Source: Deltaproteobacteria bacterium (GTDB lineage Bacteria; Myxococcota_A; Polyangia; JAAYKL01). From it: a DNA stretch of 41,635 nucleotides. This document shows positions 92 through 35,991 of the stretch, in pieces. The stretch lies in NCBI GenBank assembly GCA_028713995.1, contig JAQTNF010000033.1, positions 1-41,635 on the forward strand, given 5' to 3'. Made by a program: the position numbers and the translations under genes. The notes under the pieces were generated by a model, which saw nothing but the letters and a program-made list of their open reading frames with translations, was not told where the DNA came from and ran no database searches. Numbering within the stretch: position 1 is the stretch's first letter; every line of letters starts with the position of its first letter.

Positions 92-1444
92 TCAGCGCGG
101 CGGGCTTATGCGCAACAGGCTCCTAGCGCCTGTTTTCCCGGGAGGCGGAGAATCTGGCGTGTGTGTGTGAGCAACTGGAAAAACGACAACGCCCAGCCTC
201 GCCGGGCACTCGGAGGCCTTCATCTCCCTGGTGTCTCCCGGCTCCCAACCGCACAGCGCGAGCAGCACGAAGAACCCGATGACGTAGGCCACCGCAACAT
301 GCCAGCCCTGGCGCAGCCACCCGAGCACGTCTCGCCCCTCAGGGAACCGGCTGCACAGCGCCACACCCGCGGAGGAGCCGAACCAGATCATCGAGCCGCC
401 GAAACCCACGGCGTAGGCCAGCATTCCCCAGTCGTAGCAGCCCTGGTCGAGGCAGAGCTTGGTGAGCGGGATGTTGTCGAAGACCGCGGACACGAACCCC
501 AGGGCGAACGCCGTGTGCCACGACGCGGGCGGCAGTTCTTCCACGGGCATGAGCGACGCGCACATGACCAGGCTGAGGAGGAACGCCGCTCCGAGCAGGG
601 CGCCGCGCGCCTCCTTCCAGGGCACCGGGCGCAGGAACCGGCCGAGGACGATGGCGATCCACACGCCGACGGCGGGCAGGTCGAGGAGCACGTTGCCGAG
701 GATGGCGCCGGCCAGGATCAGACCGACCACCGCGAGCCTCCCCCAGTCGATCCGGGCGCCGGGGCGCGGGTCCTTCTCTATGCGCCGATGCCTGTCCTGC
801 TGCCGGGAGGCGAAGAAGGCGAAGAACAGGAACGCCGCGCCCGCGGCCACGTAGGCGTGGAGCACGTTGATCGGGCTCACGCCGTCGATCCACATCATGG
901 TCGTCGTGGTGTCGCCCACCACCGAGCCCGCGCCGCCCGCGTTGCTGGCCGCCACGATGGCCGCCAGATAACCGAGGTGCACCCTGCCGTCGAAGACCGC
1001 GAGCGCGACGGTGCCGCCGATGAGCGCGCCCGCGATGTTGTCGAGGAAAGAGGACAGAACGAAGACGAATGCGAGCAGCGCGAACGGCCCCCGCCAGTCG
1101 TCCGGAAGCAGGCGCGGCATGACCTCGGGTACGCCCGACTCCTCGAAGATCCTGGCCAGGACCGCGAAGCCCAGGAGCAGGCCGAGCAGGTTGAGGAGGA
1201 TCGCCCACTCGCCCTCGCGCAGCCCCTTGTGGAGGATCTGGTCGAGCAGCGGTCGCGAGCCGAGCAGATGGTGCGCCAGATGGAAGCCGGGATCGAAGAT
1301 GAGCTTGTAGGCCAAGACCACGGTCATACCCCCGATGGCCACCCAGAAGGCGCGCTTGTGCGTCACGGCCACACCCAGGAGCGTGAGAGCGAAGAGGATG
1401 AACTCGAGCCGGATACCGGCGATGGACGGCATGAGGGCGTTCAT
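92..1444 (-). CDS. nhaD: NhaD-type Na+/H+ antiporter
   Basis: A 450-residue polytopic membrane protein of the ArsB/NhaD (ion transporter) superfamily, expected to exchange Na+ for H+ across the inner membrane. Seen in the sequence: many hydrophobic segments; a DNIAGALIGGT segment near residue 135; the family-typical SNAGGAGSVVGDTTT block near residues 162-176; and DNIPLTK with GFGGSMIWFGSSAGVA in the C-terminal half, which looks like the second repeat of the fold. Length fits the family. The start codon is chosen because its ATGA overlaps the stop of the upstream antiporter gene, implying translational coupling. The last 40 or so residues after the final membrane segment are polar and resemble no known tail. 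It is the last gene of the minus-strand set that starts at 8241. A related citrate/arsenite permease is the alternative, but the NAGG-GD-TTT block favours NhaD. Confidence 0.85.
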   Translation of the reverse strand: MNALMPSIAGIRLEFILFALTLLGVAVTHKRAFWVAIGGMTVVLAYKLIFDPGFHLAHHLLGSRPLLDQILHKGLREGEWAILLNLLGLLLGFAVLARIFEESGVPEVMPRLLPDDWRGPFALLAFVFVLSSFLDNIAGALIGGTVALAVFDGRVHLGYLAAIVAASNAGGAGSVVGDTTTTMMWIDGVSPINVLHAYVAAGAAFLFFAFFASRQQDRHRRIEKDPRPGARIDWGRLAVVGLILAGAILGNVLLDLPAVGVWIAIVLGRFLRPVPWKEARGALLGAAFLLSLVMCASLMPVEELPPASWHTAFALGFVSAVFDNIPLTKLCLDQGCYDWGMLAYAVGFGGSMIWFGSSAGVALCSRFPEGRDVLGWLRQGWHVAVAYVIGFFVLLALCGWEPGDTREMKASECPARLGVVVFPVAHTHTPDSPPPGKTGARSLLRISPPR

Positions 1445-2604
1445 GTTGGGGACCTCCGCACGAGGAGCCGGAAGAGCCACGGCAGCGCGACGCTCGTCAA
1501 CAATGCGAGCAAGACGACGGCCCCGGCCGTGGTGTCGTCGATGACCTTCACCTCGAGCCCGATCCGGGAGATGACGATGAGCAGGGTGAGCGGCGTGGAG
1601 AGGAGCAGGCCAGCGGCCAACGACTCCCTGATCGACATTCCCTGCAGCGTGAGCGTCACCGACGCCAGGACTTTCGCCAAGAGCGATGCCGCGAGGAACA
1701 CGCCCAGCATGGGCAACACGTCGACGTGCAAGACGGCGCGCAGGTTGAACTGGCCGCCCACCCAGATGAAGAAGATCGGGACGAAGAAACCGAAACCGAT
1801 GGACGACATCTTGGCCTGCAGCACCTCCTTCTCGCGGAACACGAACGCGAAGAGCGCGCCGGCCACGAAGGATCCCAGGATGGCCTCGACGTCCATGAGC
1901 GACGCGAGCGCCACGAACGCCAGCATGGTGGCCATTCCGGCCCGCACTCCGATCTCCGAGGGGTCGCGCGCCGCGCCCACCCGCGAGAAAGTGGCGGGGA
2001 ACCACCAGATGAGCGTCCGCAGCACCACCAGCGCCGCGTACGCGGCCACCACGATCACTCCCAGCTTGGCCATCTCGGTCGCCAGGTGCCAGCCGAGCCC
2101 GAATCGGTAGTACATGCCGAATCCCGTGAGCAGGATGATGGTCATGAACTCGCCCAGAGAGCCGACGAGGATCGTGGTCTGGCCGACCCGAGTCCGGGTC
2201 ATGCTCGCCTCGTTGAGCGTGACCATGACCACTCCCACGCTCATCGCGCCGAAGACCAGGGCCAGGTAGGAAGGCAGCTCGAGGTAGCGGACGATGCCGA
2301 AGGAGAACCCGAAGACGAGCAGCGACGTGCCGGCGGCCCCGGCGAGGCCGCGCACGCCGCCGCGCTCGATGCGCCCGAACTCGAGCTCCAGGCCCACGAG
2401 GAACATGAGCAGCACGAACCCGAACTGGGCCAGAAACGAGATGAAGTCGTTGGGTGCCATGATCGCCAGCACCTGCGGGCCGACCAGGATGCCGAACAGG
2501 ATCTCCCCCACCGCCGCGGGAACGCCGATGCGCCCGCTGAGCAGCGGAATGACGAACGCCCCGAAGGCGATGACGAGCAGGGAGACGGCGTCGTGTGCGT
2601 GCAT
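1441..2604 (-). CDS. CPA2-family cation:proton antiporter, membrane domain only
   Basis: A 387-residue protein with about twelve hydrophobic segments, matching the Na+/H+ exchanger domain of the CPA2 (KefB/KefC, GerN) family. The N-terminal part shows SGRIGVPAAVGEILFGILVGP and the following FLVGLELE segment, both typical of this domain, and Asp/Glu residues lie within later helices. Family knowledge says such proteins move K+ or Na+ against H+ at the inner membrane. It has no cytoplasmic TrkA/RCK domain of its own, unlike KefB and KefC, but the gene just upstream encodes one, so the pair may form a channel-regulator unit (inference). An AGGCGG ribosome site precedes the ATG. It is 12 bp downstream of the TrkA-Usp gene and overlaps the nhaD start by 4 bp. 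The substrate ion cannot be told from sequence. Confidence 0.88.
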   Translation of the reverse strand: MHAHDAVSLLVIAFGAFVIPLLSGRIGVPAAVGEILFGILVGPQVLAIMAPNDFISFLAQFGFVLLMFLVGLELEFGRIERGGVRGLAGAAGTSLLVFGFSFGIVRYLELPSYLALVFGAMSVGVVMVTLNEASMTRTRVGQTTILVGSLGEFMTIILLTGFGMYYRFGLGWHLATEMAKLGVIVVAAYAALVVLRTLIWWFPATFSRVGAARDPSEIGVRAGMATMLAFVALASLMDVEAILGSFVAGALFAFVFREKEVLQAKMSSIGFGFFVPIFFIWVGGQFNLRAVLHVDVLPMLGVFLAASLLAKVLASVTLTLQGMSIRESLAAGLLLSTPLTLLIVISRIGLEVKVIDDTTAGAVVLLALLTSVALPWLFRLLVRRSPT

Positions 2605-2616
2605 CGCGCGGCCGCC

Positions 2617-4056
2617 TCAGCAGGGCATGATCATCACCGAGCAGCGCGCTCGATGGATCAGGTTCAAAACCACGTCCGGCCGGGTCAGGAAGGATCGCCG
2701 ACCGCGCCTGTAGGGCATCACGAGCAGGTCGCAGTCCCCGCACGCGCGCAAGAGTTCCCGGATCGGGTTCCCGGTCATCACCTCCGTGTCGATGTGCACC
2801 CTGTACAGGCCGGCCAGCTTCTCGACCTCCCGGCGGCGCTGCTCCATCTCCTCGCGGTGCTCGTGGCCGACCACGATCTCGGGCTGATGGACAAAGCCAA
2901 GCCGCAGCTCCGCCCCGACCATGCGGGCCACGTCGATCGCGAGCTGGGCGCCCGCCGTGTGGAACGGCAGCTCCGCCATCGCGACGAGCACGCGCTTGTA
3001 GGGGAATGTTCCGCGCGACACGAGCACCGGGGCATTCACGACGTCGATCATCCTCGCCGTCCGCGATCTGCCGAGCCCGATTCGGGACAGGAACGGCAAT
3101 CGCTCCGGAGCGAGGACGAGCACGCCCACGTCCCGACGGGCGGCTTCTTCCACGAGGCTGCTCCTCGCATCGGCCGCGGTGCACGACATCTCGTGCGGCA
3201 CGCCGGCTGCTTTGCACATCCGGGCCAGCTCCTCGAGGCGCGCGTCGTCGCCCGAGCAGCAAACGATCTCGAACCGATCCGCGCGCGTGCTTCCTATCAG
3301 GTAGCGCACCTCGTCGAGCACCTCGGACGTTCCGGATTCGCATAGGCCGACGAGGTGCGAGCCGTACTGCAGCGGGAACTCCGACTCGCCGGAGCGGATG
3401 AGCGTGGCTATGGATGGAAGGATCTCCGTGTCGCCGATGATGAGCACCTTGTCGCCGGGCGCGAGAACGGTGTCGCCGTGCGGCACGATCAGGCGTTGGT
3501 TGCGGTACACGGCGCCCACGAGCCAGCGCTTGGGATTGAGCTCGGACAGCCTGCGGCCGATGACGGAGGAGTTGGGCAGGACCTCGACCTCCAGGATCTC
3601 CCCGATGCCGAGCCCCACGTTCGTCGCCACCTTCTGACCCTGCTGCAGCCGAGACTCCAGGATGGCGGCACCGGCGTGATCCTGGGCAACGATGTCGATG
3701 CCGTCGGCGCGGTAGCGTTCGGTCCAGTCGGGGTGGTAGGTCAGGGCGAACAGGTTGGCGATGCCGAACAGCCCTCTGGCCAGGCGCAGGACCTCGATGT
3801 TGACCTCGTCCGAGCCTGTGCAGGCCACCGCACCGTAGATCCCTTCGAGCTCCGCCTTGCGCAGCACGAGGGCCGAGGTGGCGTCGCCCTGGTGGAAGCG
3901 GAAGCCGTCCTGTCCGTGCAGGTCGGCCGGCAACCTGGCCGGGGTGGCCGCGTCCGTGTCGATCAAGGTCACCTGCCAGCTGCCGCCGAGCCTCTTGGCG
4001 AGCTCCGTTCCCGTGCCCCCGGCTCCGGCAATCAGGATTCTCGGTTTCTTCGACAT
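2617..4056 (-). CDS. TrkA/RCK domain fused to universal stress domains
   Basis: A 479-residue soluble protein. Residues 1-125 form a Rossmann TrkA-N/RCK domain with the nucleotide-binding loop GAGGTGTELA near residue 9 and an acidic DTD at the end of the second strand. Residues about 135-220 match the TrkA-C ligand domain, ending in APGDKVLIIGD. Residues 230-479 look like two UspA-like halves, the second beginning at FPYKRVLVAMAELPFHTAGAQ. RCK domains bind NAD(H) or nucleotides and gate K+ channels and antiporters; UspA domains bind ATP or signal stress. The likely role is regulating the antiporter encoded immediately downstream (inference). The start at MSKKPRIL is chosen over longer options because AGGA lies about 10 nt upstream and the domain begins at once. 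The otsAB stop is 19 bp upstream. The Trk-Usp fusion is uncommon but not unique. Confidence 0.85.
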   Translation of the reverse strand: MSKKPRILIAGAGGTGTELAKRLGGSWQVTLIDTDAATPARLPADLHGQDGFRFHQGDATSALVLRKAELEGIYGAVACTGSDEVNIEVLRLARGLFGIANLFALTYHPDWTERYRADGIDIVAQDHAGAAILESRLQQGQKVATNVGLGIGEILEVEVLPNSSVIGRRLSELNPKRWLVGAVYRNQRLIVPHGDTVLAPGDKVLIIGDTEILPSIATLIRSGESEFPLQYGSHLVGLCESGTSEVLDEVRYLIGSTRADRFEIVCCSGDDARLEELARMCKAAGVPHEMSCTAADARSSLVEEAARRDVGVLVLAPERLPFLSRIGLGRSRTARMIDVVNAPVLVSRGTFPYKRVLVAMAELPFHTAGAQLAIDVARMVGAELRLGFVHQPEIVVGHEHREEMEQRRREVEKLAGLYRVHIDTEVMTGNPIRELLRACGDCDLLVMPYRRGRRSFLTRPDVVLNLIHRARCSVMIMPC

Positions 4057-4075
4057 CTTGATCCCGTTCCTGCGA

Positions 4076-6259
4076 TCACGATGCGACGAGGTCCGTGAGG
4101 ATCCGACGCACCGCCTCGACGTTCTCGAGTATGTATGCCGCCCGTGACTGCCCCGGCCCCACGTGGACGGCGATACCGCCCTCGGGGAGCGCGGCGAACA
4201 TGTCCTCGTCCGTGCGGTCGTCGCCAAAGGCCGCCACGAGTCCCCGGCTCGGCCCCATGCGGGCGAGCGCCGCCGCGAGCGCCACCCCCTTGCTCACGCC
4301 GGCCTGCCTGACCTCCACGACCTTGTTTCCCGCGATGACCTCGACCGGCCTGTTGGCGAGCGTCTCGGTCAGATGCACGCGCAGCTCGCGCGCCTGGGAC
4401 AGCCCGAACACCGGGTCGCTCGTGCGGTAGTGCCACGCCAGGGCAGCGCTCTTCACCTCGATGCGCGAACCGGCCGTGGCGGCCGTGAGACGCTCCAGGA
4501 TCGGCAGCACCGACTCCATCCACGAGGGGTCGGGCTGCGTCAGCGCCTGCCAGGCGCCGGACGGGCGGTCCCTCGACCACAGGCCGTGCTCGGCGTGCAG
4601 CGCGACCGGGAGCGCCCCGAGCCAGCGCTCGAGGGTCTGCCGCGTCCGTCCGCTCGCGACGTGCACGCTGGTGCCGGGCCTGCGTGCCAGCGCCGCGAGG
4701 AGCTCGAGCAGCGCATCGTCCGGCGTGGCTGCGTCCGGCACGTCCGCGAACGGCACCAGGGTCCCGTCGTAGTCCAGGAACAGGGTCAGCCGCCGGGCCT
4801 TGACCAGTCGACGCTTCAGGTCCACGAGCGCCTTCGCGGGGTCCGTGCGCCGCAAACGCTCGGCCCCACGCGCCGTCGGCCGGCGAAGCTCGCGGATGAA
4901 GGAGTCCGCCCATTGCTGGGCGTCGTTCGCGAGCACCGGGTCGCGCATGCTCTTCATGCGTGCTCGGCGTTCCTCCTCGGGCATGCGGATGGCCCGTTTG
5001 ATCGCGGTGGCCACGCCGTCGATGTCGTAGGGGTTCACGAGCACGCAGCCGCCCAGCTCGGACGCCGCGCCCGCGAACTCGGACAGGACGAGCACGCCGT
5101 CGCCGTCCTCCCGGGCCGCGACGAACTCCTTGGCCACGAGGTTCATGCCGTCGCGCAGCGGAGTGACGAGCATCACGTCCGCCGCGAGATACAGCGCGGC
5201 CACCTGGCGCGCGGACAGGGAGCGGTGCATGTGGTGGACGGGCACGGAGCCCGCGTCGGAGAAGCGCGCGTTGACCCGCCCGGCGATCTCCTGCACCTGG
5301 CGCTGGAACTCGCGGTACGCGGGAACGTCCTCTCGCGAGGGAACCGTGACCTGGATGAACCGGATCCGGGATCGCAGCGAGGGCTCGGTCTCGAGGAGCC
5401 GCTCGATCGCCATGAAGCGCCGAGGTAGGCCCTTGGTGTAGTCGAGGCGGTCGATGCCCAGGATGAGCTTGCGCCCCGAGGCGCGGCGACGGATGCGCGA
5501 CGCTTCTCGGATGACCTCGGGATCCCGCCCGAGTGCGCCGTAGAGCTCCGCGTCAACGCCGATGGGAAAGATGCCGAGCCTCACCTCGCGGCCGTCGTGC
5601 CGGACGCGCGACGCGTCGACCTCGCAGTCCATGAGGCCCATGAGCGCCGAGGAGAAGTGCCGCAGGTAGCCCGGCGTGTGGAACCCGATCAGGTCGGCGC
5701 CGAGCATGCCCGCGAGCAGCTCCTTCCTCATGGGAAGGACGCGGAAGACCTCGGGCGACGGGAAGGGGATGTGCAGGAAGAACCCGATGCGGGCGTCGGG
5801 GATGAGCGCCCGCAGCATGCCGGGAACCAGCATCAGCTGGTAGTCGTGCACCCACACCATGGCGCCCTTGCGGTAGCGCCCGGCCACGGCCTCGGCGAAG
5901 CGCCGGTTGATGGCCTGGTATGTGTCCCAGCCGTCGTAGGCGAGCGGCAGGCGATCGGTCAGGTAGTGGAACAGGGGCCACACCACGCCGTTCGAGAACC
6001 CGTCGTAGTACCTGCGCACCTCGCGCCCGGTCATGTAGATCGGGACCGCGCGGTGCTCGGCCAGCCCCCGGTCGATCTGTTCGGCCCTGGCGCCCGACAC
6101 CTTGCCCTCGACGCCCGGCCAGCCGAACCACAGGCCGCCCTGCTTCAGGTGCGGGCCGCGCAGGCCGCTGACCAGCCCTCCCGAGGAGGGCGCGATCAAG
6201 ACCGCTTTGGGCGACGTCCTGACCGTGACCGGCAGCCGGTTCGAGACGATGTAGAGCAT
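4076..6259 (-). CDS. otsAB: Bifunctional trehalose-6-phosphate synthase/phosphatase
   Basis: A 727-residue fusion making trehalose in two steps. The N-terminal 470 or so residues are a GT20 synthase: it opens [14 protein letters not shown], has a [10 protein letters not shown] glycine loop, [15 protein letters not shown] and [14 protein letters not shown] near residues 140-170, [14 protein letters not shown] for the donor site, and [15 protein letters not shown]. The remaining 250 residues are an OtsB-type HAD phosphatase, with the nucleophile motif [10 protein letters not shown] near residue 493 and the metal-binding [11 protein letters not shown] near the C-terminus. UDP- or GDP-glucose plus glucose-6-phosphate would be converted to trehalose-6-phosphate and then trehalose. 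It starts 15 bp after the GH15 gene stop. Synthase and phosphatase are both apparently intact. Fusions of this order occur in several bacteria and in eukaryotes. Confidence 0.95.
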
Positions 6260-6274
6260 CCGCTTCCCCCTTTC

Positions 6275-8107
6275 CTACTTCCAGGCCCTGACCTTCCCGG
6301 TCGTGACCTCGGAGATCTCGCCGATGGTCATGGCCGCGTGCACGAGCCCCACGTGCGTGTATGCCTGCGGGAAGTTCCCGAGCAGCATGCCCGTGTCGGG
6401 GTCGATGTCCTCCGAGAAAAGACCGAGGTGGTTCGCGTTGGCCGCCAGGCGGTCGAACAGCGCCACGGCCTCGTCGAGCCTGCCCATGAGGGCCAGCGCC
6501 TCGGCCCACCAGAAGGAGCACACGGTCAGGGCGCTCGTGGTCGCGCCGAAGTCGTCCTCGTTCCTGTAGCGGAGCATGAGCCCCTTCTCGACGAGCAGCC
6601 GCTCGTAGGCCTCGACCGTGGAGACGAACCGGGGGTCCTTCGCGTCGACAATCCCGATGGTGGGCAGGAGCAGGTTGGACGCGTCCGGGAACTCGCCGCC
6701 GAGGGCCTGCGTGAAGAAGCCGAGCTTGTGGGAATAGCCGCGCGCCAGGACCACCTCGCGCTCGCTGTCCGCAAAGGCCTGCCAGCGTTGCGCCAGGTAG
6801 CGTCTGCCGAACGCCCGCGCCAGGTCGGCCCCGCGCTGGGCCGCGACCCAGCACATGGCTCTCGAGAACGTGTACGGACGCAGCATGGAGCGGAACTCCC
6901 AGATGCCGGTGTCCTCCTGTGGGGCCGATTCCATGGCCAGCCTGACGAGGCGCGTGATGATGGCGAAGATGCCGTCCCGATCCTCGATGACCACGCGCGG
7001 ATCGCGCAGCAGCGTGTCGAGGCAAAGCACGACCTCGCCCATGAGATCGTTCTGCCGCTGCAGGTATGCGGCGTTGCCGATGCGCACGTGCCCGTTGCTC
7101 GCGAACCCCGCCAGGTGGGGCAGCATCACCTCCTCGAGCACGTGCTCGCCCCCGATGCCGTACACGGGCTGCAGCGGCCGCGCCTCCACGGCGTTGCGCA
7201 GGAACGAGACGAAGCGCTCCCCCTCCTGGAGGTGGCTGAGCCTGCGCAGGGCCTCCACCACGAAGGCCGCGTCCCGCAGCCAGCAGTAGCGGTAGTCCCA
7301 CGTGCGCGGCGTGCCCAGGGCCTCGGGGATGCTCGTGGTGGCCGCGGCGATGATCGCCCCGGTGTCCTCGTAGGTGTGCAGCTTGAGGCACAGGGCGGAT
7401 CGGAGCACCTTCTCGGCCGCGTACGTGGGCAGGGAGCACGTCTTGGCCCAGGCGCGCCAGCCTGCGACGGTCATCTCCAGGTCGGATTGCACCGATGAGA
7501 TCGTGGGGCTCTGCGCGAGACGCCCGTAGTGCAGGCACAGGAACATGGGTCGATCGAGCACGAACTCGCGTTTCCCGAGGATGTACTGCGCCGGGATGTC
7601 GGAGGCGAGGTGCACGGGAGCCGCGGCGCCGAGAACCTCGATGCCGGCGCCGGTCTCGTACATGTTCGCCATGGCCCGCCCGTAGTCGGGCCGCGGGTCG
7701 AAATCGACCGAGAGCCGCGGCTTGCCCTTCAAGGGGTGCAGGATGCGGACGATCTCCACGGGGCTGCGCACTCCCAGCCCTTCCGGGATGCGCGGGGCGA
7801 AGTCGAGGATCTCCCAGGCCGTGGCCCCGGCCTCGAAGGTCGTGGAGAGCACGTTCGTGTTCTTGATGTAGCGCATGCGGCCGGTCGTCTCGCCCGCGGA
7901 CGACAGAACGCGCAGGCAGCCGCCCTTGTCCCGGTCGAGCAGCCGCGCGAAGATCGACGGGGAGTCGAACCTCGGCAGGCACAGCCACTCGATGGCGCTC
8001 GTGGGCGAGACGAGGGCGATGACCCGGCCATTGCCGATGGCCCCGTGGTCGAGGGCCGCGCGCGCGCCGCCTTGCCGTGCGTTCCCTGCCTTCGTCTTCG
8101 AGTTCAT
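6275..8107 (-). CDS. GH15 family trehalase/glucoamylase-like hydrolase
   Basis: A 610-residue glycoside hydrolase family 15 protein. The N-terminal beta-sandwich opens DHGAIGNGRVIALVSPTSAIEWLCLPRFDSPSIFARLLD, typical of bacterial GH15. The catalytic (alpha/alpha)6 barrel shows TWDYRYCWLRDAAFV near residue 265 and DTGIWEFR, the segment that carries the general acid Glu in the family, and ends in the typical SEDIDPDTGMLLGNFPQAYTH. No signal peptide is seen, so it should be cytoplasmic. GH15 proteins of this type are either trehalases or glucoamylases; placement beside otsAB favours trehalose hydrolysis or recycling (inference). The start at MNSKTKAG is used because the conserved domain follows closely; the ribosome site is weak (AGAGCC). 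It is followed after 15 bp by otsAB. Confidence 0.9.
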   Translation of the reverse strand: MNSKTKAGNARQGGARAALDHGAIGNGRVIALVSPTSAIEWLCLPRFDSPSIFARLLDRDKGGCLRVLSSAGETTGRMRYIKNTNVLSTTFEAGATAWEILDFAPRIPEGLGVRSPVEIVRILHPLKGKPRLSVDFDPRPDYGRAMANMYETGAGIEVLGAAAPVHLASDIPAQYILGKREFVLDRPMFLCLHYGRLAQSPTISSVQSDLEMTVAGWRAWAKTCSLPTYAAEKVLRSALCLKLHTYEDTGAIIAAATTSIPEALGTPRTWDYRYCWLRDAAFVVEALRRLSHLQEGERFVSFLRNAVEARPLQPVYGIGGEHVLEEVMLPHLAGFASNGHVRIGNAAYLQRQNDLMGEVVLCLDTLLRDPRVVIEDRDGIFAIITRLVRLAMESAPQEDTGIWEFRSMLRPYTFSRAMCWVAAQRGADLARAFGRRYLAQRWQAFADSEREVVLARGYSHKLGFFTQALGGEFPDASNLLLPTIGIVDAKDPRFVSTVEAYERLLVEKGLMLRYRNEDDFGATTSALTVCSFWWAEALALMGRLDEAVALFDRLAANANHLGLFSEDIDPDTGMLLGNFPQAYTHVGLVHAAMTIGEISEVTTGKVRAWK

Positions 8108-8115
8108 GGCAGGCT

Positions 8116-8241
8116 CTAGGTGTTGCACATGCGCATGAGCAGCGCCGACGCGACGATGAAGACGAAGACCATCGCCGGGAAGATGTTTCCCAGGTTCCTC
8201 TTGAACCAGCCCTTCTTTTCCTGTCCGTTCTGATCGGTCAT
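8116..8241 (-). CDS. Small single-pass membrane peptide, 41 residues
   Basis: A short gene with a clear AGAAAGGCGG ribosome site before ATG. The product has a polar, Lys-rich N-terminus (MTDQNGQEKKGWFKRN) and one membrane helix (roughly residues 19-36, IFPAMVFVFIVASALLM), ending RMCNT. Its stop lies only 8 bp from the GH15 start, so it is probably the first gene of the osmotic operon. Function is unknown; it could anchor or regulate one of the antiporters, but nothing in the sequence proves that. Confidence 0.6.
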   Translation of the reverse strand: MTDQNGQEKKGWFKRNLGNIFPAMVFVFIVASALLMRMCNT

Positions 8242-8686: not shown

Positions 8687-8871
8687 GCGACCACTATAGG
8701 GCCCCGCATCGGGGTGGTCAAACGGGGCCAGGTATTTGTGCCATGTGTTTGCCGGCGCTCGAGCGACTCGCAGCCCGCCATGTTGATGTCAGTGACGACC
8801 CCTCTCTTGGCGAGAAGGAGATACCCGATGGGGGCGAAGCTGTAGAACGATTGGGCCGGGCGACTTTCCAT
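8683..8871 (-). pseudogene. Truncated PAS-domain fragment
   Basis: A 62-codon frame with a strong AGGAGGAG ribosome site 7 nt before ATG. The first 36 residues match the opening of a PAS domain: SFYSFAPIGYLLLAKRGVVTDINMAGCESLERR has the family pattern of Pro-[VI]-Gly-Tyr, a Gly turn, then D-I-N-x-A. After that the likeness stops abruptly and the frame ends, overlapping the GTG of the next gene. A PAS domain needs about 100 residues, so this is a remnant of a sensor kinase or similar protein, or a deletion joint. The intact ribosome site means a short peptide could still be made. Confidence 0.5.
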
Positions 8872-26725: not shown

Positions 26726-28353
26726 CCTCCCTTGCGCAGCTGGGGAAAGCCCTCGAGGAACTTTTCGATCCTGGACGCGCCCGATCTCAGCTCGGCCAGC
26801 ACCGCCTCGAGCCGCGCCGCGTCCGTCCGGTCGCGGATCCCGGTGGTGCCCGCGTCGTGCTCGAAGCCGGCGCTCTGCGCCGCCATCCGCCCTCTCAGCT
26901 GCTCGAGCTGGAATCCCAGGTCTTCCAGCCTCACGGCGTCGTCCCGCAGCTGCCGCCGAAGCGCCTTGACGCGCGCGACGGCCTCCCGGGGAGGCTCCTT
27001 GCGGTTCTCCCGGGCCGCCGCGATCCCCAGCTCCAGGGTCTCTGCCCGCCTCTGCGCGACGTGGATCTCGCGTCGCAGGGCCGACTCGTCGCGCGCGATC
27101 GCGTCCACCGCGCGGCCCAGCCTCTCGCGGCCTAGCCGCAGGTTCTCGTCGTCGCGCTCCCGGGTCTCGGCCGACTTCTTCAAGGAGACATCGAGCCGCG
27201 CGCCCTCCTCGAGGAGCGTCGCGAGGCGCCTGTGGCATCCCTTCAGCCAGGGCGGGTGCATGCGGTCCGGCACGCGCGCGACGGCCTCCTCGTAGCCCTC
27301 GACCCTGAGGCGCCAGTCGTCGATTCCGGGCGCGGGTCCGGTGCGGGCGCAAAAAGCCGCGGCGACCGGGCTCGCGATGCCGCGGACGGTGTCGAGGTGA
27401 TCGTCTTCCTCGCTCTCGCACCCGCCGACGGCCGCGAGTCGGGCGAGATCCTCGAGCAGGTGGTGGGCGTCCTGGTACCGATCCTCGGGCCGCTTGCGCA
27501 GGAGCCTCATGACGACCTCGTCCGCCTCGCGCGGAACGGGCAGCGGGCCCTTGGCGCGCGACGGCGGGACCGGGTCACGGCTCAGGTGGCTCAGCATGAC
27601 CTGCGTGGCCGCGCCCTCGAACGGCAGGCGCCCGACGATCGTCTCGTAGAACACGATCCCCAGTCCGTAGAGGTCGGACGCGGGCGAAGCCGCGCCACCC
27701 GTGGCCTGCTCGGGCGAGACGTACTCTGGCGTCCCGAAAACCTGGCCCGTGAACGTGAGCCGCATGTCGTCCTTCATGCGCGCGAGGCCGAAGTCGAGGA
27801 TCCTGACCTGGTCGCCGCCGTCGTCGCGGGGTTCCAGGATGATGTTGTCCGGCTTGATGTCGCGGTGCACGATCCCGAGATCGTGGGCGCGCCCGAGCCC
27901 GCGCGCGACCTCGGTGACGATGGCCACGGCCTTGGCGAACGGCAAAGGGCCGCTCGCGATGAGATCGGCGAGCGTCGGGCCCGACAGATAGTCCATGACC
28001 ATGTAGACCACGCCGTCCTCGGTCTCGCCCGTCTCCCAGACCTTGATGATGTTCTCGTGGTCGATGTGCTTGGCCGCCCGCGCCTCCCTCAAGAAGCGCG
28101 CGCGCTGCACCGGGTCGCCGGCGAGCCCGGACGACAGGACCTTCATGGCCTCCACGCGGCCCGTGTGCTCCTCGCGGATCTTGTAGACCGCACCCATGCC
28201 GCCCGCGCCGAGCTTCTCGATCACGCGGAAACGACCGTCGACGAGCCGGCCAACGAGCGGGTCGTCGATCGAAAACAGGCGCATCCCGTCCACGGGGCAA
28301 ATCCGAACATTGTCCGGGTAGCGGGTCTTGCAGATCGGGCAGTAGCGCTTCAT
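26722..28353 (-). CDS. Hanks-type serine/threonine protein kinase with zinc ribbon
   Basis: A 543-residue cytosolic protein. It opens with a zinc ribbon (Cys5, Cys8, Cys19), then the kinase domain: GAGGMGAVYK (49-58), AMKVL for the ATP lysine, HRDIKPDNI, DFGLAR and GTPEYVSPEQ. After residue 330 a long charged, coiled-coil-like tail rich in Arg/Glu (no transmembrane segment) occupies 200 residues. Start MKRYCPIC is the first Met before the ribbon; upstream ATG/TTG are alternatives without good ribosome sites. Downstream coupled endopeptidase suggests control of the cell wall (inference). Confidence 0.92.
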   Translation of the reverse strand: MKRYCPICKTRYPDNVRICPVDGMRLFSIDDPLVGRLVDGRFRVIEKLGAGGMGAVYKIREEHTGRVEAMKVLSSGLAGDPVQRARFLREARAAKHIDHENIIKVWETGETEDGVVYMVMDYLSGPTLADLIASGPLPFAKAVAIVTEVARGLGRAHDLGIVHRDIKPDNIILEPRDDGGDQVRILDFGLARMKDDMRLTFTGQVFGTPEYVSPEQATGGAASPASDLYGLGIVFYETIVGRLPFEGAATQVMLSHLSRDPVPPSRAKGPLPVPREADEVVMRLLRKRPEDRYQDAHHLLEDLARLAAVGGCESEEDDHLDTVRGIASPVAAAFCARTGPAPGIDDWRLRVEGYEEAVARVPDRMHPPWLKGCHRRLATLLEEGARLDVSLKKSAETRERDDENLRLGRERLGRAVDAIARDESALRREIHVAQRRAETLELGIAAARENRKEPPREAVARVKALRRQLRDDAVRLEDLGFQLEQLRGRMAAQSAGFEHDAGTTGIRDRTDAARLEAVLAELRSGASRIEKFLEGFPQLRKGG

Positions 28354-28435
28354 GGCTCGGCCGGAAACCATGGCTCGCAAGATAGCATAAATGAAGAAAG
28401 CCGGTGAAATGCGGGGCGCCGGCGGACGAAATCGC

Positions 28436-28810
28436 CTAACCGAACCGCTTCTTCAGGAACAGGAATTGGACGTAGGATCGGTAGAGGTCCGGGTTGCTCT
28501 CGGTGCCCCTGTCGATCTTGACGCCGTAGCGCGTGACCGGAGCGCAATCCCCGCCGGCCTGCCCGTTGCCGGGCGCGACCCACTTGACGGTGGCCGAAAA
28601 CGCGCAGCTCTCGTCCCCGGCCTGGAAGAGCAGGTTCGCCCGGTCGAGCACCCCCAGCTCCTCCACGTGGCCCGTCACGTCCATGCACAGGCCGGATTCG
28701 CTGCAGTTCACGAGCTTGACCTGGTGCTTCGCGGACGCTGTCTTGAGGTACATCCGGATGGAGCACTCCCACGAGGCGTCGATTCTTTCGGATTTCCGCT
28801 TATTGTCCAA
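28436..28810 (-). CDS. PilZ-like domain protein
   Basis: A 124-residue protein matching the PilZ fold: basic, Arg-containing start KRKSERIDASWECSIRMYL and the NCSESGLCM (D/NxSxxG) signature, then GVKI near the C-terminus. PilZ binds cyclic-di-GMP, but the first Arg motif is weaker than usual, so binding is uncertain. TTG start with AAGGAGAG 8 nt upstream. It is separated from the kinase by 82 bp. Confidence 0.7.
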   Translation of the reverse strand: MDNKRKSERIDASWECSIRMYLKTASAKHQVKLVNCSESGLCMDVTGHVEELGVLDRANLLFQAGDESCAFSATVKWVAPGNGQAGGDCAPVTRYGVKIDRGTESNPDLYRSYVQFLFLKKRFG

Positions 28811-28959
28811 GATTCCGCTCTCCTTGTTCCTCGGCGAATTTTAGACGTTTTTTCAAGGAGCGAGGTAGAAAAATCCACGCGCACCGGATGAATGGGGTTG
28901 TGCGAACCCGTCGAGGCGCGGAAGATGCCGTGGCGGCCCGTGTGATCCGAGGTGATGCC

Positions 28960-29886
28960 ATGCTGAAGCGATACCGGCTCGACTGCGGGAAGATTGCGGA
29001 GTGCGGGGACTTCGATCAGATCCTCGTCTACGTCAATCCCGACGAGGAGGAGAAGAAACACCTCACCGGGACGCTCAAGATAGACGAGCACACGCTCAAC
29101 TCCGCGCTCGACCCCGACGAGCTGTCGCGCCTCGAGTTCGAGCCCGAGCACATCGCGCTCATCTACAAGCGTCCGAAGAGCTACTCGGCGCAGGACGAGT
29201 ACCTGTTCAAGGTGGCGTCCACGGGCCTGTTCCTTTTCAAGCAGCAGATCGTCATCGTGATCTCCGAGGACGTGCCGCTCTTCGACGGCAAGCACTTCAC
29301 CAAAATCGCCTCGCTCCAGGACGCCGTGCTCAAGCTCATCTACCGCTCCATCTTCCAGTACCTCGAGCACCTGAAGACCATCACGCTCATGACCGACGCC
29401 CTCGAGAAGAAGGTCAGCTCGTCGATGGAGAACAGGTACCTCTTCAGCCTCTTCACGCTCGAGAAGAGCCTCGTCTACTACATGAACGCCATCAACTCGA
29501 ACTCCATGCTCATCGAGAAGCTCAAGTACAACGCGGCCAAGATCGGGTTCACGCAGGAGGAGATCGAGTTCCTCGACGACATCACCATCGAGAACAGCCA
29601 GTGCTACAAGCAGGCCGAGATCTACTCCAACATTCTGGCCGGGCTCATGGACGCGCGCGCCTCGATCGTCAACAACAACCTGAACGTGCTCATGAAGACG
29701 CTCAACATCATCACCATCGGCATCATGGTCCCGACCCTGGTGGTGAGCGCGTTCTCCATGAACGTGGCCATGCCCTTCGACCACTCGCACCCCGCGGCGT
29801 TCTGGTCGATCCTCGCGCTCGCGTCGATTTCGGTGGTGAGCTTCATGCTTTTCTGGCGCCACAGGAACAAGAACCGAGTGGTGTGA
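28960..29886 (+). CDS. CorA-like membrane protein lacking the canonical GMN
   Basis: A 308-residue protein with a soluble N-terminal alpha/beta domain, long helices, and two C-terminal membrane helices (IITIGIMVPTLVVSAFSMNVAMPF and FWSILALASISVVSFMLFW), as in CorA Mg2+ channels. The CorA pore motif Gly-Met-Asn reads Ser-Met-Asn here (residue 266). CorA family members with changed motifs may carry other metals or be regulators. GAGGTGATGCC precedes the ATG. The HAD gene follows after 6 bp. Confidence 0.8.
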   Translation: MLKRYRLDCGKIAECGDFDQILVYVNPDEEEKKHLTGTLKIDEHTLNSALDPDELSRLEFEPEHIALIYKRPKSYSAQDEYLFKVASTGLFLFKQQIVIVISEDVPLFDGKHFTKIASLQDAVLKLIYRSIFQYLEHLKTITLMTDALEKKVSSSMENRYLFSLFTLEKSLVYYMNAINSNSMLIEKLKYNAAKIGFTQEEIEFLDDITIENSQCYKQAEIYSNILAGLMDARASIVNNNLNVLMKTLNIITIGIMVPTLVVSAFSMNVAMPFDHSHPAAFWSILALASISVVSFMLFWRHRNKNRVV

Positions 29887-29892
29887 AGCCGC

Positions 29893-30552
29893 ATGGCCGC
29901 AATGCGACAGGCCGCGTTCTTCGATCTCGACGGCACGCTCGTCGGCGTCAACACGGGCGCCTTGTGGATGCGCGAGGAGCGCCGGGCCGGGCGGCTCCGT
30001 TTGCGGCACGTTGCCGTCGGGGCGCTCTACATGGCTGCGTACCGGTTCCGCGCGGTCGACATGGAGCGCGCCATGGTCCGGGCGCTTACGACCATAAAGG
30101 GCGAGCGCGAGGAGGTCGTGCGGAAACGGACCCACGACTGGTGGCGCTCGAGCGTCGTGCCGTGGATCGCGCCGGGCGCCGCTTCCGCGGTCGAGGAGCA
30201 CCGCGCGCAAGGGCACCTGCTCGTGCTGCTCACGTCCTCGTCGCCGTACGCCTCCGAGATCGCGGCGAGGCACTTCGGGCTCGACGCGGTCCTGTGCACG
30301 GCGTTCGAGGTGAAGGACGGGAGGTTCACGGGAGACGTGGTGCGGCCCATCTGCTACGGCGAGGGCAAGGTCGTCCACGCCGAGCGCTTCGCCGCACAGG
30401 CCGGCGTGAGCCTCGACGAGAGCTTCTTCTACACGGACAGCTTCACGGACCTGCCCATGCTCGAGCGCGTGGGCCACGCCCGGACGGTGGGCCCGGACCT
30501 GCGGCTGCGCATAACCGCCCGGCGCCGCGGCTGGCCCGTGCTCGACTGGTGA
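29893..30552 (+). CDS. HAD-IB family phosphatase (SerB-like)
   Basis: A 219-residue hydrolase. Motif I is FFDLDGTLVG (nucleophile Asp), motif II LLTSSSPY, motif III Lys in GEGKVVHAE, and motif IV DSFTDLPMLE. The small-cap architecture with DLDGT...TSS...DSxxDLP is that of the SerB-related HAD-IB group acting on small phosphorylated metabolites; the substrate cannot be named. Seven bases after the CorA-like gene, so probably one operon. Confidence 0.9.
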   Translation: MAAMRQAAFFDLDGTLVGVNTGALWMREERRAGRLRLRHVAVGALYMAAYRFRAVDMERAMVRALTTIKGEREEVVRKRTHDWWRSSVVPWIAPGAASAVEEHRAQGHLLVLLTSSSPYASEIAARHFGLDAVLCTAFEVKDGRFTGDVVRPICYGEGKVVHAERFAAQAGVSLDESFFYTDSFTDLPMLERVGHARTVGPDLRLRITARRRGWPVLDW

Positions 30553-30596
30553 GGGGTTCGTAGGACAGGGGGTCCATCTCTTGCCGCCGCTCGTGG

Positions 30597-30692
30597 GGCG
30601 GGGGGTTATCCCCCGCCGCTGCACCCCAGATCCCTCCCGCCGCGCCCGGCGACCAATCGCCGGGCTGAAACCACGAAGGACGCCGGGCGTCC
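30597..30692. repeat. Cluster of three palindromes
   Basis: Three GC-rich hairpins follow each other: 8-bp arms around 5 nt at 30597-30617 (GGCGGGGG/CCCCCGCC), 9-bp arms around CCAA at 30644-30665 (GCCCGGCGA/TCGCCGGGC), and a 7-bp palindrome at 30678-30692 (GGACGCC-G-GGCGTCC). No T-run follows any of them. They mark the boundary of the ordinary chromosome with the toxin region and could end the HAD transcript or be REP-like units. Confidence 0.5.
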
Positions 30693-30727
30693 TGTCCGTG
30701 GTACAATGTAGGCTCCGGGAGGACCAT

Positions 30728-31237
30728 ATGAGACATGATCCAAGGACTCCGGGAGTGAAGCCGGCACCGACTCCGACGCGTTGGCAGACGCGGGATGTCG
30801 GCGGGAAAATGTCTGTCGCTGATGTTGCTGCTAAAGTTGGTGGATCATCGATCAGACAAGTCCCTGCTTCGACAAATGTTGAAGGCTTTGGGAAGGTTGA
30901 GACGACGGCCACCCAAGGCAGGGAGTGGGGTTTCTATGCGACCGAGAACAAGGATAAAGAAATTGAGATGTTCTTGGTGGCCGGCAAGTGGGAAGATGAG
31001 CACGGTGGGTGGACGTTATCGAAAGAACTACAATCATCCGCTTTGGGAAGAATCCAAGAAAGCGGGAATACTTTACTTTTGGAAGGACATACCCATCCCC
31101 AAGGAGGGCTTCCGACATGGAAGAGCGACTACGTGGGTGCAAATTGGTGGGATACGCGCGGTTGGGGAAATGTCAGAAACATTACTATTGATGCATCTGG
31201 TGGCAACCGCTGGTGGGAATACAACTATACGCCATGA
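30728..31237 (+). CDS. Orphan DUF4329-like toxin tip (module 1)
   Basis: A 169-residue protein. An ATG preceded by GGGAGG at 30719 starts it. The first 20 codons come from a 32-bp block identical to part of the SD-linker lipoprotein gene near 40.6 kb but read in another frame. The rest is AT-rich and ends in LLLEGHTHPQGGLPTWKSDYVGANW, a His-Thr-His-Pro motif with a following Ser-Asp, as in DUF4329/JAB-like toxin domains. No Rhs core is attached, so it is an orphan tip, paired with the lipoprotein gene 35 bp downstream. Possibly inactive. Confidence 0.55.
   Translation: MRHDPRTPGVKPAPTPTRWQTRDVGGKMSVADVAAKVGGSSIRQVPASTNVEGFGKVETTATQGREWGFYATENKDKEIEMFLVAGKWEDEHGGWTLSKELQSSALGRIQESGNTLLLEGHTHPQGGLPTWKSDYVGANWWDTRGWGNVRNITIDASGGNRWWEYNYTP
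30749..30780 (+). repeat. 32-bp copy of an SD-lipoprotein leader
   Basis: Identical to 40583-40614, where it codes for PGSEAGTDSDA of the lipoprotein. Here it lies in a different frame at the start of an orphan toxin tip. Nothing else around is shared beyond a short GTGGTA stretch. Confidence 0.8.
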
Positions 31238-31272
31238 TGAACGGGCGTCAGTAGAAAGAGTGACAGGAATCA

Positions 31273-31875
31273 ATGTTTGTTGACAGCGAACGAATATCAA
31301 TATCGATTGTGGCTGTATTTCTGATTTCGACGGCATTATTCCAGAGCGGATGCGCATCCCAGAGGCCAGATGTGAGTCGATTGAACAAGCAGATGGTCGA
31401 GACACCAAAGACTGCCGTTATTGTGAACGACAAAGAAATCGAAGTGCAAATCGGAGATAAAAAGCTCTCCTGGATGAAATGCCCTCTGGGAATGACGTGG
31501 GATGGTAAGTCGTGTGAGGGGAGAGCGACAAGAATGCTCTGGGATGAGGCCAAGAAATCCTGCCCTCCGGGATACCGAATGCCGACTCACGAGGAGATGT
31601 TGGTGATAATGGGACCTTGTGTAGAAAAGCCAGAAATGGCTGTAATAAATGAAGAAAAGCGATGCAAGAAATGCAAGGAGAGCGAAATATGCAATCAACT
31701 GTTTTTCTATCACACATGGGCAAAGGAAGAAGAATATGAATCAGGTTATACATGTAAGGACATAAATAAAGATGGAAACGGAAATTGGTGGTTTGACGTT
31801 TATGAAGGGATAATAGCAGTCGGCCCTATGAATACTTCTTCGATGGTGCGATGCTTGAAAGAAGTGGGAAAATAA
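31273..31875 (+). CDS. AT-rich lipoprotein, candidate immunity protein (module 1)
   Basis: A 200-residue lipoprotein; the signal peptide ends FQSGC (Cys27). The mature part is Cys-rich and contains CPPGYRMPTHEEMLVIMG, resembling Cys-bearing DUF1566/FISUMP-type domains, as well as repeated KKCKESEICNQ. Codon use is far more AT-rich than the main chromosome. Its position after an orphan toxin tip suggests a periplasmic immunity protein. Function otherwise unknown. Confidence 0.6.
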   Translation: MFVDSERISISIVAVFLISTALFQSGCASQRPDVSRLNKQMVETPKTAVIVNDKEIEVQIGDKKLSWMKCPLGMTWDGKSCEGRATRMLWDEAKKSCPPGYRMPTHEEMLVIMGPCVEKPEMAVINEEKRCKKCKESEICNQLFFYHTWAKEEEYESGYTCKDINKDGNGNWWFDVYEGIIAVGPMNTSSMVRCLKEVGK

Positions 31876-31919
31876 AACAGATTGTCTGTCATGCTCAAGT
31901 GCGTGTTGGATAAAGTTCC

Positions 31920-34715
31920 ATGACCGCGTCGTGGACCGGGTACGACCCTGTGACGCACCGGGCGGCGGCCACGGTGGTGCAGCAGCTCTCGCCGCAATAC
32001 GCGGGCGCGCCCTCAAAGGCCACGCTGCTCTCGTTCGGGTACGAGTACGACCGTGTGGGCAAGCTCAAGGGCGTCGCGGACTACCGGGGCCGGCCGAACG
32101 ACGGCCAGCATGAGACGTCGTTGCAGGAGAGCGGACGGCTCAAGGCGCCGCATCCGGTGACGGTGAACGCGGGACAGGACATCGCGGGGTACCACCAGCC
32201 CGGGATGCCCGCGGACTTCGACGGGTCCATGACCGCGCCCACGAAGTGGAATGCGAGCGACGCGTTGTTCGACGGCACGAAATGGCCGCTCGGCGCGGCG
32301 CCGTCCGACGCGGTGCTGGGGTACGACAGCCTGTATCAGCTCGTATCCGAGGATCGGGAGTACGCCACGGGCACGGGCGACGACGTGCAACAGGCGCAGG
32401 GCGAGGCCCCTGTGAGCCGCGTGCGCCAGCTCGACTGGGGCTTTGACCCGCTCGGATCCATGACCGAGTGGCTGGAGGGCGGCACAGGGCAGGCAGAGCA
32501 CCGCAACCAGGGCCGGGCATTGGGCGTGATCACGAACGGGTACGCGCTCAACCTGGCTGGCGGATGCAACATGAGCATCCTGTCCACGGGCGGCGCGATC
32601 CCGGCCGGGTGCTTCAGGCCCGACGCGCTCTACTTTGCGAGCAACGTGGACGACGCCGGCCCAGGCCGGGGAACGTGCGTGTGGGTGGAGTACGACGGCG
32701 CCGGGCGCATGGATTGGCAGGTCGTGCGCACGGGATGCAGCGTCTGTGCCTATGACGCTGTGGCGTCGGATCGGGGCGTGGCCGCGGCGACGTGCCCTGG
32801 CGATGCGACCACGGATCCAGCGCACCCTGTAGAGGCGCACGTCACGCGGTACGAGTACACGTGGAACGCGGTGGGCGAGCTCGGGGGGGCCAAGAAGCGG
32901 GTGGACGGCGTGGAGAGCGTGACCATGTCGTACATCTACGACGCCTCTGGCGCGCGGGTGATCCGCGAGAAGTCCGAGGCGGCGTCCGACCCCACGAACA
33001 TCCGGCAGGACCTGTACGTCTCGGGTGGGTACGAGCGGCGCCAGGTGCAGCTCCGGGACGCAGGCGGGACCCCGGTGTCCGTAAACGCAGCCGTGCCGGG
33101 CGAAGCATACGCCAACCTGGAGGGTACACGTCTCGTGCGGTACTCCTCGGGCCTGCGCATCGAGAACGACTACGACGAGACATCCGGAGAGCTTACCGAC
33201 CGCAAGATGTTCCTGTCGTTCGGGAACCACCTCGGGTCCACGAGCGCGGTGGTGGACTACAACGACGGGACGCTGGTGGAGTGGCGCACGGCGTACGCGT
33301 ACGGCGCGGACGAGAGCCACTGGAAGAGCGACGATCCCAGATACGCTGACGCGGACGAGCCATACAAGTTCACGGGCAAGGAGGAGGACGAGGCGGTCGG
33401 GCTCTTTTACTTCGGCGCGAGGTATTACTCGGCGATTCTGGGGAGGTGGTTGAGCCCGGATCCGGTGAGCACGCACCAGGGCGCGATGGAGAGCTACTAC
33501 GGGTATGGAGGCAACAGCCCGTACATCGCCATCGATCCGGACGGGCGGATCGCGAACTTCATCATCGGGGCAATCGTCGGTGCCATCATCGGGGCGGTAG
33601 TAGGGGCGATCAAGGGCGGGTGGAAAGGAGCCATCATCGGAGCCGCTGTCGGCGCGGTTGTGGGAGCCGCGACTTCCGGGGCCGGGTCGGCTGCTGCATC
33701 GGGGGCGGCTGCTGCCGGAATGGGTGCAACAGCATCGGGTGCAGTTGGAGCTGCCGCCGCAGGAGCCGTGGCCGGAGCCGCGGGGATTGTTCAAGCCAAG
33801 GCGTCCGGGGCAACATGGGGACAGTCGTTCCTTGCAGGAGGCATCTCGTTCGCCTGCGGAGCAATCGGAGGAGTTGCCGGCGCAGGTATTTCGTCAGCAG
33901 GAGTAGGTGCCGCATCATCAACTCTTGCCGGGCTCGGAATCGGAGCCAGCCTGAGCGGGACCGTGACATTGACCGAGGCCGCGGTAGCGACGGACGGGGA
34001 CTTGAGCAAGGCGAATTGGGACTCGCTGGCCGCGGACTGGGCCATGAACGTTGGCGCGAGCGCATTAGGGGCCGCGGTCGGGGCGGGGTTGGGGAATCTG
34101 ACGGGGAACGGGGCAGGAGCAGGGGAAGAACCTCGGGTGGCCCAAGGCACAGCCCCTGCACCCAAGGCCCAAGGAGGGAACCCCCCAGTGGAGGTGCAGC
34201 GCGCATTGGCCGATCCCGCCGTGCGGAAAATCATGGCGGAGCAAGCCCGTTTAGCGGTTCAGGAGGGTGTTGAAAAGGGAGGATGGATTGTGAAGGCAAG
34301 CGGGGGTTATCGTTTTTCTCCTTATAAGAACGATCCATTGAACAACCAAGCCATGGACGTCCTTCCCCCGCCGGAAGGAACAGTGTTTGGTTTCCACATC
34401 CATGAGCCGACGATTTACGATTCCAGGACAGCTGAGGGCAGATTAAATCTTTGGAATACGGGATATGGCGAAAGCGTTCCGACTAAGGCCGATGCGAAAG
34501 TCGCTGTGGACTACGGAAAACCTCAAGTGGTAGTGGATTCTATAAATACATATTACCTTTTCCCAGGAGGGAGAAACGCTGGAAGTTTTATGCCGATCGG
34601 TCCGCGGATCGACACCAACATTGCGCCCTCTGTATCAAGTTCGGGGTATTTCAACTACAGATCTTTTGAGCCGATGTCGCCTCACTACCCTATGCCATCA
34701 TGGATGAACAGATGA
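31920..34715 (+). CDS. Rhs/YD-repeat protein, 5'-truncated, with DUF4329-like toxin tip
   Basis: A 931-residue C-terminal part of an Rhs toxin. It starts without signal or the usual thousand-plus N-terminal residues, and its ribosome site is weak, so the gene has lost its 5' end. YD-type strands (FGYEYDRVGKLKGV; YIYDASGARVI) lead to the Rhs core boundary at about residue 481: YKFTGKEEDEAVGLFYFGARYY, then GRWLSPDP. Residues 547-720 are a Gly/Ala-rich helix array (GAIVGAIIGAVVGA), probably a membrane-crossing segment. From 757 the toxin tip begins (VEVQRALADPAVRK), with FHIHEP and a DAKVAVDYGKPQVVVDS block matching DUF4329. Its TGA overlaps the ATG of the SUMF1 lipoprotein. Alternative: a decayed gene that only donates tips. 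Confidence 0.8.
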   Translation: MTASWTGYDPVTHRAAATVVQQLSPQYAGAPSKATLLSFGYEYDRVGKLKGVADYRGRPNDGQHETSLQESGRLKAPHPVTVNAGQDIAGYHQPGMPADFDGSMTAPTKWNASDALFDGTKWPLGAAPSDAVLGYDSLYQLVSEDREYATGTGDDVQQAQGEAPVSRVRQLDWGFDPLGSMTEWLEGGTGQAEHRNQGRALGVITNGYALNLAGGCNMSILSTGGAIPAGCFRPDALYFASNVDDAGPGRGTCVWVEYDGAGRMDWQVVRTGCSVCAYDAVASDRGVAAATCPGDATTDPAHPVEAHVTRYEYTWNAVGELGGAKKRVDGVESVTMSYIYDASGARVIREKSEAASDPTNIRQDLYVSGGYERRQVQLRDAGGTPVSVNAAVPGEAYANLEGTRLVRYSSGLRIENDYDETSGELTDRKMFLSFGNHLGSTSAVVDYNDGTLVEWRTAYAYGADESHWKSDDPRYADADEPYKFTGKEEDEAVGLFYFGARYYSAILGRWLSPDPVSTHQGAMESYYGYGGNSPYIAIDPDGRIANFIIGAIVGAIIGAVVGAIKGGWKGAIIGAAVGAVVGAATSGAGSAAASGAAAAGMGATASGAVGAAAAGAVAGAAGIVQAKASGATWGQSFLAGGISFACGAIGGVAGAGISSAGVGAASSTLAGLGIGASLSGTVTLTEAAVATDGDLSKANWDSLAADWAMNVGASALGAAVGAGLGNLTGNGAGAGEEPRVAQGTAPAPKAQGGNPPVEVQRALADPAVRKIMAEQARLAVQEGVEKGGWIVKASGGYRFSPYKNDPLNNQAMDVLPPPEGTVFGFHIHEPTIYDSRTAEGRLNLWNTGYGESVPTKADAKVAVDYGKPQVVVDSINTYYLFPGGRNAGSFMPIGPRIDTNIAPSVSSSGYFNYRSFEPMSPHYPMPSWMNR
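34153..34402 (+). repeat. Tip 5' block, shared with 35989-36238
   Basis: About 250 bp, nearly identical to 35989-36238, spans the last linker of the Rhs protein and the first part of its toxin tip. Identity ends abruptly after the FHIHEP codons; the following 150 bp of tip diverge. Confidence 0.85.
34548..34711 (+). repeat. Tip 3' block, shared with 36626-36789
   Basis: About 164 bp, differing at one position, covers the last 55 codons of the toxin tip and ends just at the immunity-gene ATG. Together with 34153-34402 it frames a diverged core. Confidence 0.85.
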
Positions 34716-35860: not shown

Positions 35861-35991
35861 TGACACATGGACATCGATCGGGTATCGCATCCGCATGCTG
35901 AGGAAGCAACGCATCGACTTCGAGGGAGCCTGACGCCATGTCATACACCCCGGTCTTTAAGTGTCATCTGGCGGGTATTGACCCCAATGCC
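35831..35991. mobile_element. Inverted-end repeat element, copy A (161 bp)
   Basis: Starts GGGGCGAT then GGGGTCAATACCC and ends GGGTATTGACCCC; the outer ~30 bases at each end are imperfect inverted repeats continuing through ACTTGA-type and GTGTCATC-type bases. Interior carries TCGATCGGGTATCGCATCC. It differs from copies B and C mainly by 3 extra bases (TGA) near its left end. No transposase is seen, so it is MITE- or REP-like. Confidence 0.8.

Follow-up and report, generated by a model that had tools for sequence, protein, structure and literature searches.

A six-gene row joining trehalose genes to an RCK-Usp regulator and antiporter pair in a Myxococcota class genome

KhtT and KhtU are an established case of a CPA-type antiporter gated in trans by an RCK protein (PMC10117811). 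In KhtT/KhtU of Bacillus subtilis and CpeA/CpeB of Streptomyces alike, a CPA-type antiporter is gated by a separate RCK_C protein encoded next to it (PMC10117811), and both operons also hold a small extra frame, KhtS or CpeC. KefC and KefB similarly put a CPA2 membrane domain under RCK control, but their ion-site pair is Gln-Asp and their RCK is fused at the C-terminus. We compared with these systems a row of six genes at one end of a 41,635-nucleotide stretch (the whole of it called the window; contig JAQTNF010000033.1 of assembly GCA_028713995.1) from a Myxococcota class genome. Its antiporter carries a Gly-Glu pair and has its RCK in trans, and its regulator, in contrast to those of KhtTU and CpeAB, combines RCK_N and RCK_C with a pair of Usp domains; all 24 regulator sequences compared lack the c-di-AMP signature given for the KhtTU-type RCK_C. 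We consider it reasonably likely that the row is a genuine lineage-specific operon for osmotic or ionic stress, joining two modules that recur separately.

Gene content and packing

Six frames occupy the minus strand of 92-8241, each verified as an open reading frame, and the distances between them from 5' to 3' are 8, 15, 19, 12 and -4 bp (a 4-bp overlap), as tight as the first-pass annotation had claimed. Computation across the row matched the Pfam families GH15 and TREH_N; GT20 and trehalose-PPase; TrkA_N, TrkA_C and Usp; Na_H_Exchanger; and CitMHS. One correction concerns the regulator, whose Usp portion consists of two such domains in tandem. The overall span held up in that all six frames exist, but for the sixth gene an end at 92 probably overshoots by about 100 bases.

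Under a codon model trained with the row's five large genes, all six genes scored 0.49-0.79 bits per codon in frame, compared with -0.84 to -1.35 for shifted frames, and the five large genes kept 0.45-0.73 bits per codon when each was left out of training. The first gene (8116..8241, minus strand) encodes a 41-aa single-span membrane peptide with a basic N-terminus and one hydrophobic stretch. Its score of 0.617 bits per codon and GC3 of 0.90 are coding-like, and searches of Pfam and NCBIfam with the peptide gave zero matches.

Upstream of the row lies a promoter-like site, TTGACC-17-TATAGT (8693..8721, minus strand), recognised by consensus match only. Sigma-70-like sites numbered 2 in 11 kb compared with 0.4 expected in shuffles, and the same consensus scan found zero sites on the minus strand inside 92-8241. 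A 121-aa frame at 8686-8321 (minus strand) was rejected as a seventh gene: it scored -0.171 bits per codon, which is non-coding, and matched nothing in Pfam or NCBIfam. The stretch behind the promoter-like site may therefore be a long leader, which for this row may come to about 445 bases. At the other end, a terminator-like hairpin with a T run (188..210, minus strand) sits where the coding signal of the last gene ends. The window begins at the first base of contig C33 of a draft genome, and the row's far end touches that contig end.

Farther along the window, from 28000 to 41635, GC content is 0.47-0.62 compared with about 0.66-0.72 before it, with the exception of 32-34 kb (0.68). Genes in this part encode CorA, a HAD hydrolase, a 931-aa glycine-zipper protein, two FGE-sulfatase-domain proteins and a WD40 protein, and it is possibly acquired DNA.

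The trehalose genes

The third gene (4076..6259, minus strand) encodes a trehalose-6-phosphate synthase/phosphatase fusion that clearly belongs to NF011071, scoring 917.6 bits over residues 2-725 (cut-off 634), and matches PF00982 and PF02358 in Pfam. It resembles the OtsA-OtsB fusion described by NF011071 over its full length, and differs from it in gene neighbourhood only.

Before it lies a GH15 hydrolase, a probable trehalase (6275..8107, minus strand), with PF00723 (171.5 bits) and the TREH_N domain PF19291 (72.4 bits) both above cut-off. The GH15 family includes glucoamylases as well as isomaltose and dextran enzymes, and PDB sequence matches of the row's enzyme belong to these same kinds; a PDB sequence search with the GH15 alone as query yielded nothing useful. 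The enzyme could accordingly be an alpha-glucosidase rather than a trehalase, releasing glucose from glycogen or dextran-like stores to feed trehalose synthesis. In PMC10232917, trehalases are given the catalytic pattern WE[FDEV] / [SGA]E[EH] and glucoamylases WEE / [SPN]EQ. The row's first catalytic region, WEF, fits the trehalase pattern and not the glucoamylase WEE. The second, SED, lies outside both patterns, and its departure from the trehalase one favours the alpha-glucosidase; its residues S565, E566 and D567 are invariant in all nine aligned sequences. Against an alpha-glucosidase stand the TREH_N domain and the NCBIfam scores, in which archaeal trehalases were the best named models (325 and 290 bits) and an oligosaccharide amylase reached 40 bits. 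The archaeal equivalog cut-offs themselves were missed by far (TreH1, 325.5 of 820 bits; TreH2, 289.6 of 1000 bits). GH15 trehalases from mycobacteria and from thermophilic archaea have in common with the row's enzyme the TREH_N and GH15 domains and the WE[FDEV] region, and are set apart from it by the archaeal cut-offs that it misses and by its SED region. On balance we think the alpha-glucosidase unlikely.

Gene neighbourhoods also point to a trehalase. Among the 289 class genomes, 131 have GH15 (E <= 1e-80) and 156 have the synthase (E <= 1e-60). At least 27 of 61 other GH15 genes (E <= 3.6e-112) shared a contig with a synthase match no more than 1 kb away, a hand count that is a lower bound, with synthase matches weaker than about 7e-88 not included. 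Nine of the 27 linked pairs were on the same strand and 18 were divergent, and both orders occurred, with genomes G178 and G003 showing the order seen in the window. Linkage in both orders and orientations means that the association was kept or re-made many times, and no other evidence speaks more strongly for a GH15 role in trehalose metabolism than this recurrence in varying orientation. Taken with TREH_N and the WEF site, it makes the proposed recycling of trehalose by the GH15 enzyme likely, a direction in which its sequence leans as well.

The regulator, the antiporter and the closing transporter

The fourth gene (2617..4056, minus strand) encodes a cytosolic regulator that Pfam, a structure model and fold matches resolve into RCK_N, RCK_C, a degenerate Usp and a second Usp. 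The model, built with 24 sequences (mean pLDDT 84.4, pTM 0.64), contains RCK_N, RCK_C and a pair of Usp folds. In VIA-align, residues 225-479 superimposed on two tandem Usp structures, 3loq with 238 aligned (Z 22.4, 3.1 A) and 3ab7 with 222 aligned (Z 21.0, 2.9 A). Residues 2-140 matched two RCK/KTN structures, 2g1u with 134 aligned (Z 20.2, 3.2 A) and 1lss with 130 aligned (Z 19.0, 2.7 A), and the RCK part has fold matches of the TrkA/KtrA/MthK type. TrkH was absent from the window's own genome at the curated threshold. In a plasmid collection, the regulator as query hit 48 records, in none of which a single place covered 80% of the query.

Two ligands were considered and set aside. ATP-binding Usp proteins carry the pattern G2XG9XG(S/T), which was missing in 24 of 24 regulator sequences. 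The c-di-AMP signature (I/L)(I/L)X2DX1RX5N(I/L)(I/L) of RCK_C was found in 0 of 24, strict or loosened, which removes c-di-AMP as an obvious ligand; the genome itself encodes one diadenylate cyclase domain. A GxGxxG-type nucleotide loop was found in 19 of the 24, some of the sequences being cut at the start. With this loop present and both other patterns missing, a nucleotide at RCK_N appears the likeliest ligand of the regulator, and the two Usp domains together probably serve as a protein-binding or non-ATP module.

The fifth gene (1441..2604, minus strand) encodes the membrane domain of a CPA2 antiporter (Na_H_Exchanger, PF00999, 161.4 bits against a cut-off of 26.2), and its frame stops after that domain, with no RCK of its own. 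Its CPA motif reads A120-M121-S122-V123 ... G151-E152 ... K311, and by alignment its ion-site pair is Gly-Glu, the counterpart of Asp-Asp in NapA and of Gln-Asp in KefC. An identity as KefB-like K+ efflux system was rejected on the misfit of the ion-site pair and of the TM4 stretch: a Gly-Glu site instead of Gln-Asp means that the antiporter is not a Kef, and the KefB and KefC models scored far under cut-off. The best solved relative is NapA of Thermus thermophilus (E 6.1e-32, profile search), which has a similar TM4 stretch (A-T/M-S-V) and, like the row's protein, a conserved Lys at motif position 8; the row's antiporter keeps this Lys but lacks the Asp-Asp pair of NapA-type electrogenic CPA2 proteins. 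By CPA motif rules derived on other clades (PMC6181914), exchange is predicted to be electroneutral when position 6 is neutral, and a non-polar residue at position 4 sets a protein apart from Kef. Kef-like motifs have Thr at position 4 where the row's antiporter has Val, and the neutral residue at its position 6 makes it electroneutral by prediction.

That the regulator lies directly before an RCK-less antiporter, an observation of the first-pass annotation, proved to be a recurrent arrangement in trans. Of the 289 class genomes, 16 carry the regulator, the window's own among them (E <= 1e-40), and a CPA2 gene lies directly beside it at 15 of the 16 other class places; at the sixteenth (L152) the contig ends inside the regulator gene, and a partial regulator match (G038:C994) was left out of the examined loci. 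With the antiporter as query, named genomes of bacteria and archaea gave 80 loci, 29 of which hold the pair, with the RCK-Usp protein in its own gene directly upstream at 25 and a diverged regulator at four loci of Archaeoglobi. In all 29 the regulator is 5' of the antiporter. Most other antiporters among the 80 loci are about 220 residues longer at the C-terminus, many of them with an RCK match.

In the tree, 41 rows with RCK in cis or of other kinds fall together on one side of a split (SH-aLRT 99), and the main trans group of 26 rows, window included, requires 2 to 3 changes. The trans form is perhaps older than the cis form, on a tree that is unrooted and has several long branches. The MAG contig L093, which bears the title Helicobacter pylori, has an antiporter that groups with an Arcobacter row, and its title may be wrong. 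Ion sites in the first trans group are GE in 20 of 25 and AD in 5 of 25; the remaining 55 antiporters have AD (39), GE (10), SD (4) and AE (2). Among loci L060-L139, antiporters with their own C-terminal RCK carry Ala-Asp and those with a separate RCK-Usp gene carry mostly Gly-Glu, and ten Campylobacterota antiporters in this set are Gly-Glu, yet no such regulator was found nearby.

The pair is thus a widespread, little-noticed variant of trans-RCK antiporters, a kind of system already known in itself, and we found no description of an RCK-Usp antiporter pair in the open-licence literature, as judged by titles and abstract openings. A bolder proposal, which we regard as doubtful, is that RCK-tandem-Usp proteins and GE-type CPA2 antiporters constitute a widespread undescribed two-gene system of cation/proton exchange, extending from Myxococcota to Archaeoglobi and ANME-1 (AD or SD in the archaea). 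The Usp tandem, sensing stress, and the RCK ring, sensing a nucleotide, would then be two inputs to one gate, wired in this genome to trehalose turnover so that one transcript would set both ion export and solute synthesis.

The sixth gene (92..1444, minus strand) encodes an IT-superfamily transporter called NhaD-like from a CitMHS match, a weak NhaD match and its fold. Its last 35 codons score -0.783 bits per codon, which is non-coding, and alignments to its relatives stop at about residue 416, which puts the probable end of the gene near 197, by the hairpin at 210-188. The non-coding tail at 92-197 overlaps that hairpin, and read-through, a frameshift or a contig-end error are all compatible with it.

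The earlier count of two antiporter types is not supported for this gene: NhaD models are its only named NCBIfam matches, but both cut-offs were missed (TIGR00775, 56.2 of 577.1 bits; NF038006, 46.6 of 80 bits). What it shares with NhaD is the IT-superfamily fold and those sub-threshold matches, on which Na+ extrusion is possible, not established. The protein may instead move an anion (phosphate, sulfate, arsenite or dicarboxylate), a real possibility, though less likely than not. The anion carrier draws on the Pfam assignment to CitMHS and on the structure model (mean pLDDT only 72), an IT-superfamily elevator fold whose best solved matches are Pho90, NaDC3, NaS1 and ArsB (Z 20.8-23.3, 363-373 aligned). 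No NhaD structure was among the fold matches listed, which decides nothing about NhaD identity. The NhaD matches speak against an anion carrier, as does the composition of the IT superfamily, which includes true Na+/H+ exchangers besides anion carriers (PMC9408914); with both transporter kinds in one superfamily, the fold does not decide the ion. A PDB sequence search with the NhaD-like profile yielded nothing useful, and a plasmid collection gave zero matches to the protein. Few class genomes have relatives of the gene (8 of 289, counting the window's own), and an 84% paralogue is present in the same genome (L048 7340-8626, G000:C20), where its upstream neighbours are CrtC-lipocalin and DUF1302 genes.

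The row as a unit

Each module of the row is conserved, but the full six-gene row was found in no other genome checked. Neither trehalose nor NhaD-like genes adjoined the pair at any of the 16 other class places, and none were near it at the 80 named loci within the fetched stretch, where many contigs were short. Conversely, 12 stretches around GH15, synthase or NhaD-like genes held no pair, with one weak RCK match. Trehalose genes lay within 8-14 kb of the pair at 2 of 16 class loci. These distances are 8 kb from GH15/TPS at L147 (G093) and 14 kb at L041/L059 (G047), both of the same family, and in both genomes RND efflux genes are near or between the pair and the GH15/TPS genes. We found no description of trehalose, Usp, KefB and antiporter genes in one operon in the open-licence literature, by titles and abstract openings. 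The idea that trehalose and antiporter genes form one unit thus does not generalise, since their union is not conserved across class and named loci, and we read it as a lineage-specific arrangement. The row consists of ordinary parts in unusual order plus one under-described module.

Such a pattern would also arise if two or three independent units (GH15-TPS/TPP; RCK-Usp/CPA2; NhaD-like) had become adjacent by rearrangement, each under its own control and with short gaps reflecting genome compaction. Independence would agree with the separation of the modules almost everywhere else and with the different setting of the NhaD-like paralogue in the same genome. It is harder to reconcile with the spacing at the two module joints, 19 and -4 bp, which leaves little room for promoters outside coding sequence, and with the lack of promoter-like matches inside the row, and we judge it improbable. 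The signs of a single unit are the common strand, the short gaps, the promoter-like site upstream with none inside, and the hairpin at the end.

For the row as one stress operon, we infer a single transcript that salt or drying would trigger. The synthase/phosphatase would make trehalose and the GH15 enzyme would hydrolyse it to glucose. The RCK-tandem-Usp protein would dock on the CPA2 membrane protein from the cytosolic side and gate cation/proton exchange in trans, as KhtT gates KhtU. The NhaD-like IT-superfamily transporter, duplicated in the genome, comes last in the row.

Bacteria stressed by salt or drought balance ions against compatible solutes, with genes that are usually scattered. 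Both functions on one message, if true, would make the coupling of ions and solutes directly testable. The pair is a conserved one-to-one gene association of a Usp protein with a transporter, and its putative separate RCK-tandem-Usp gate and atypical ion site offer a handle on how universal stress proteins may act on a membrane transporter.
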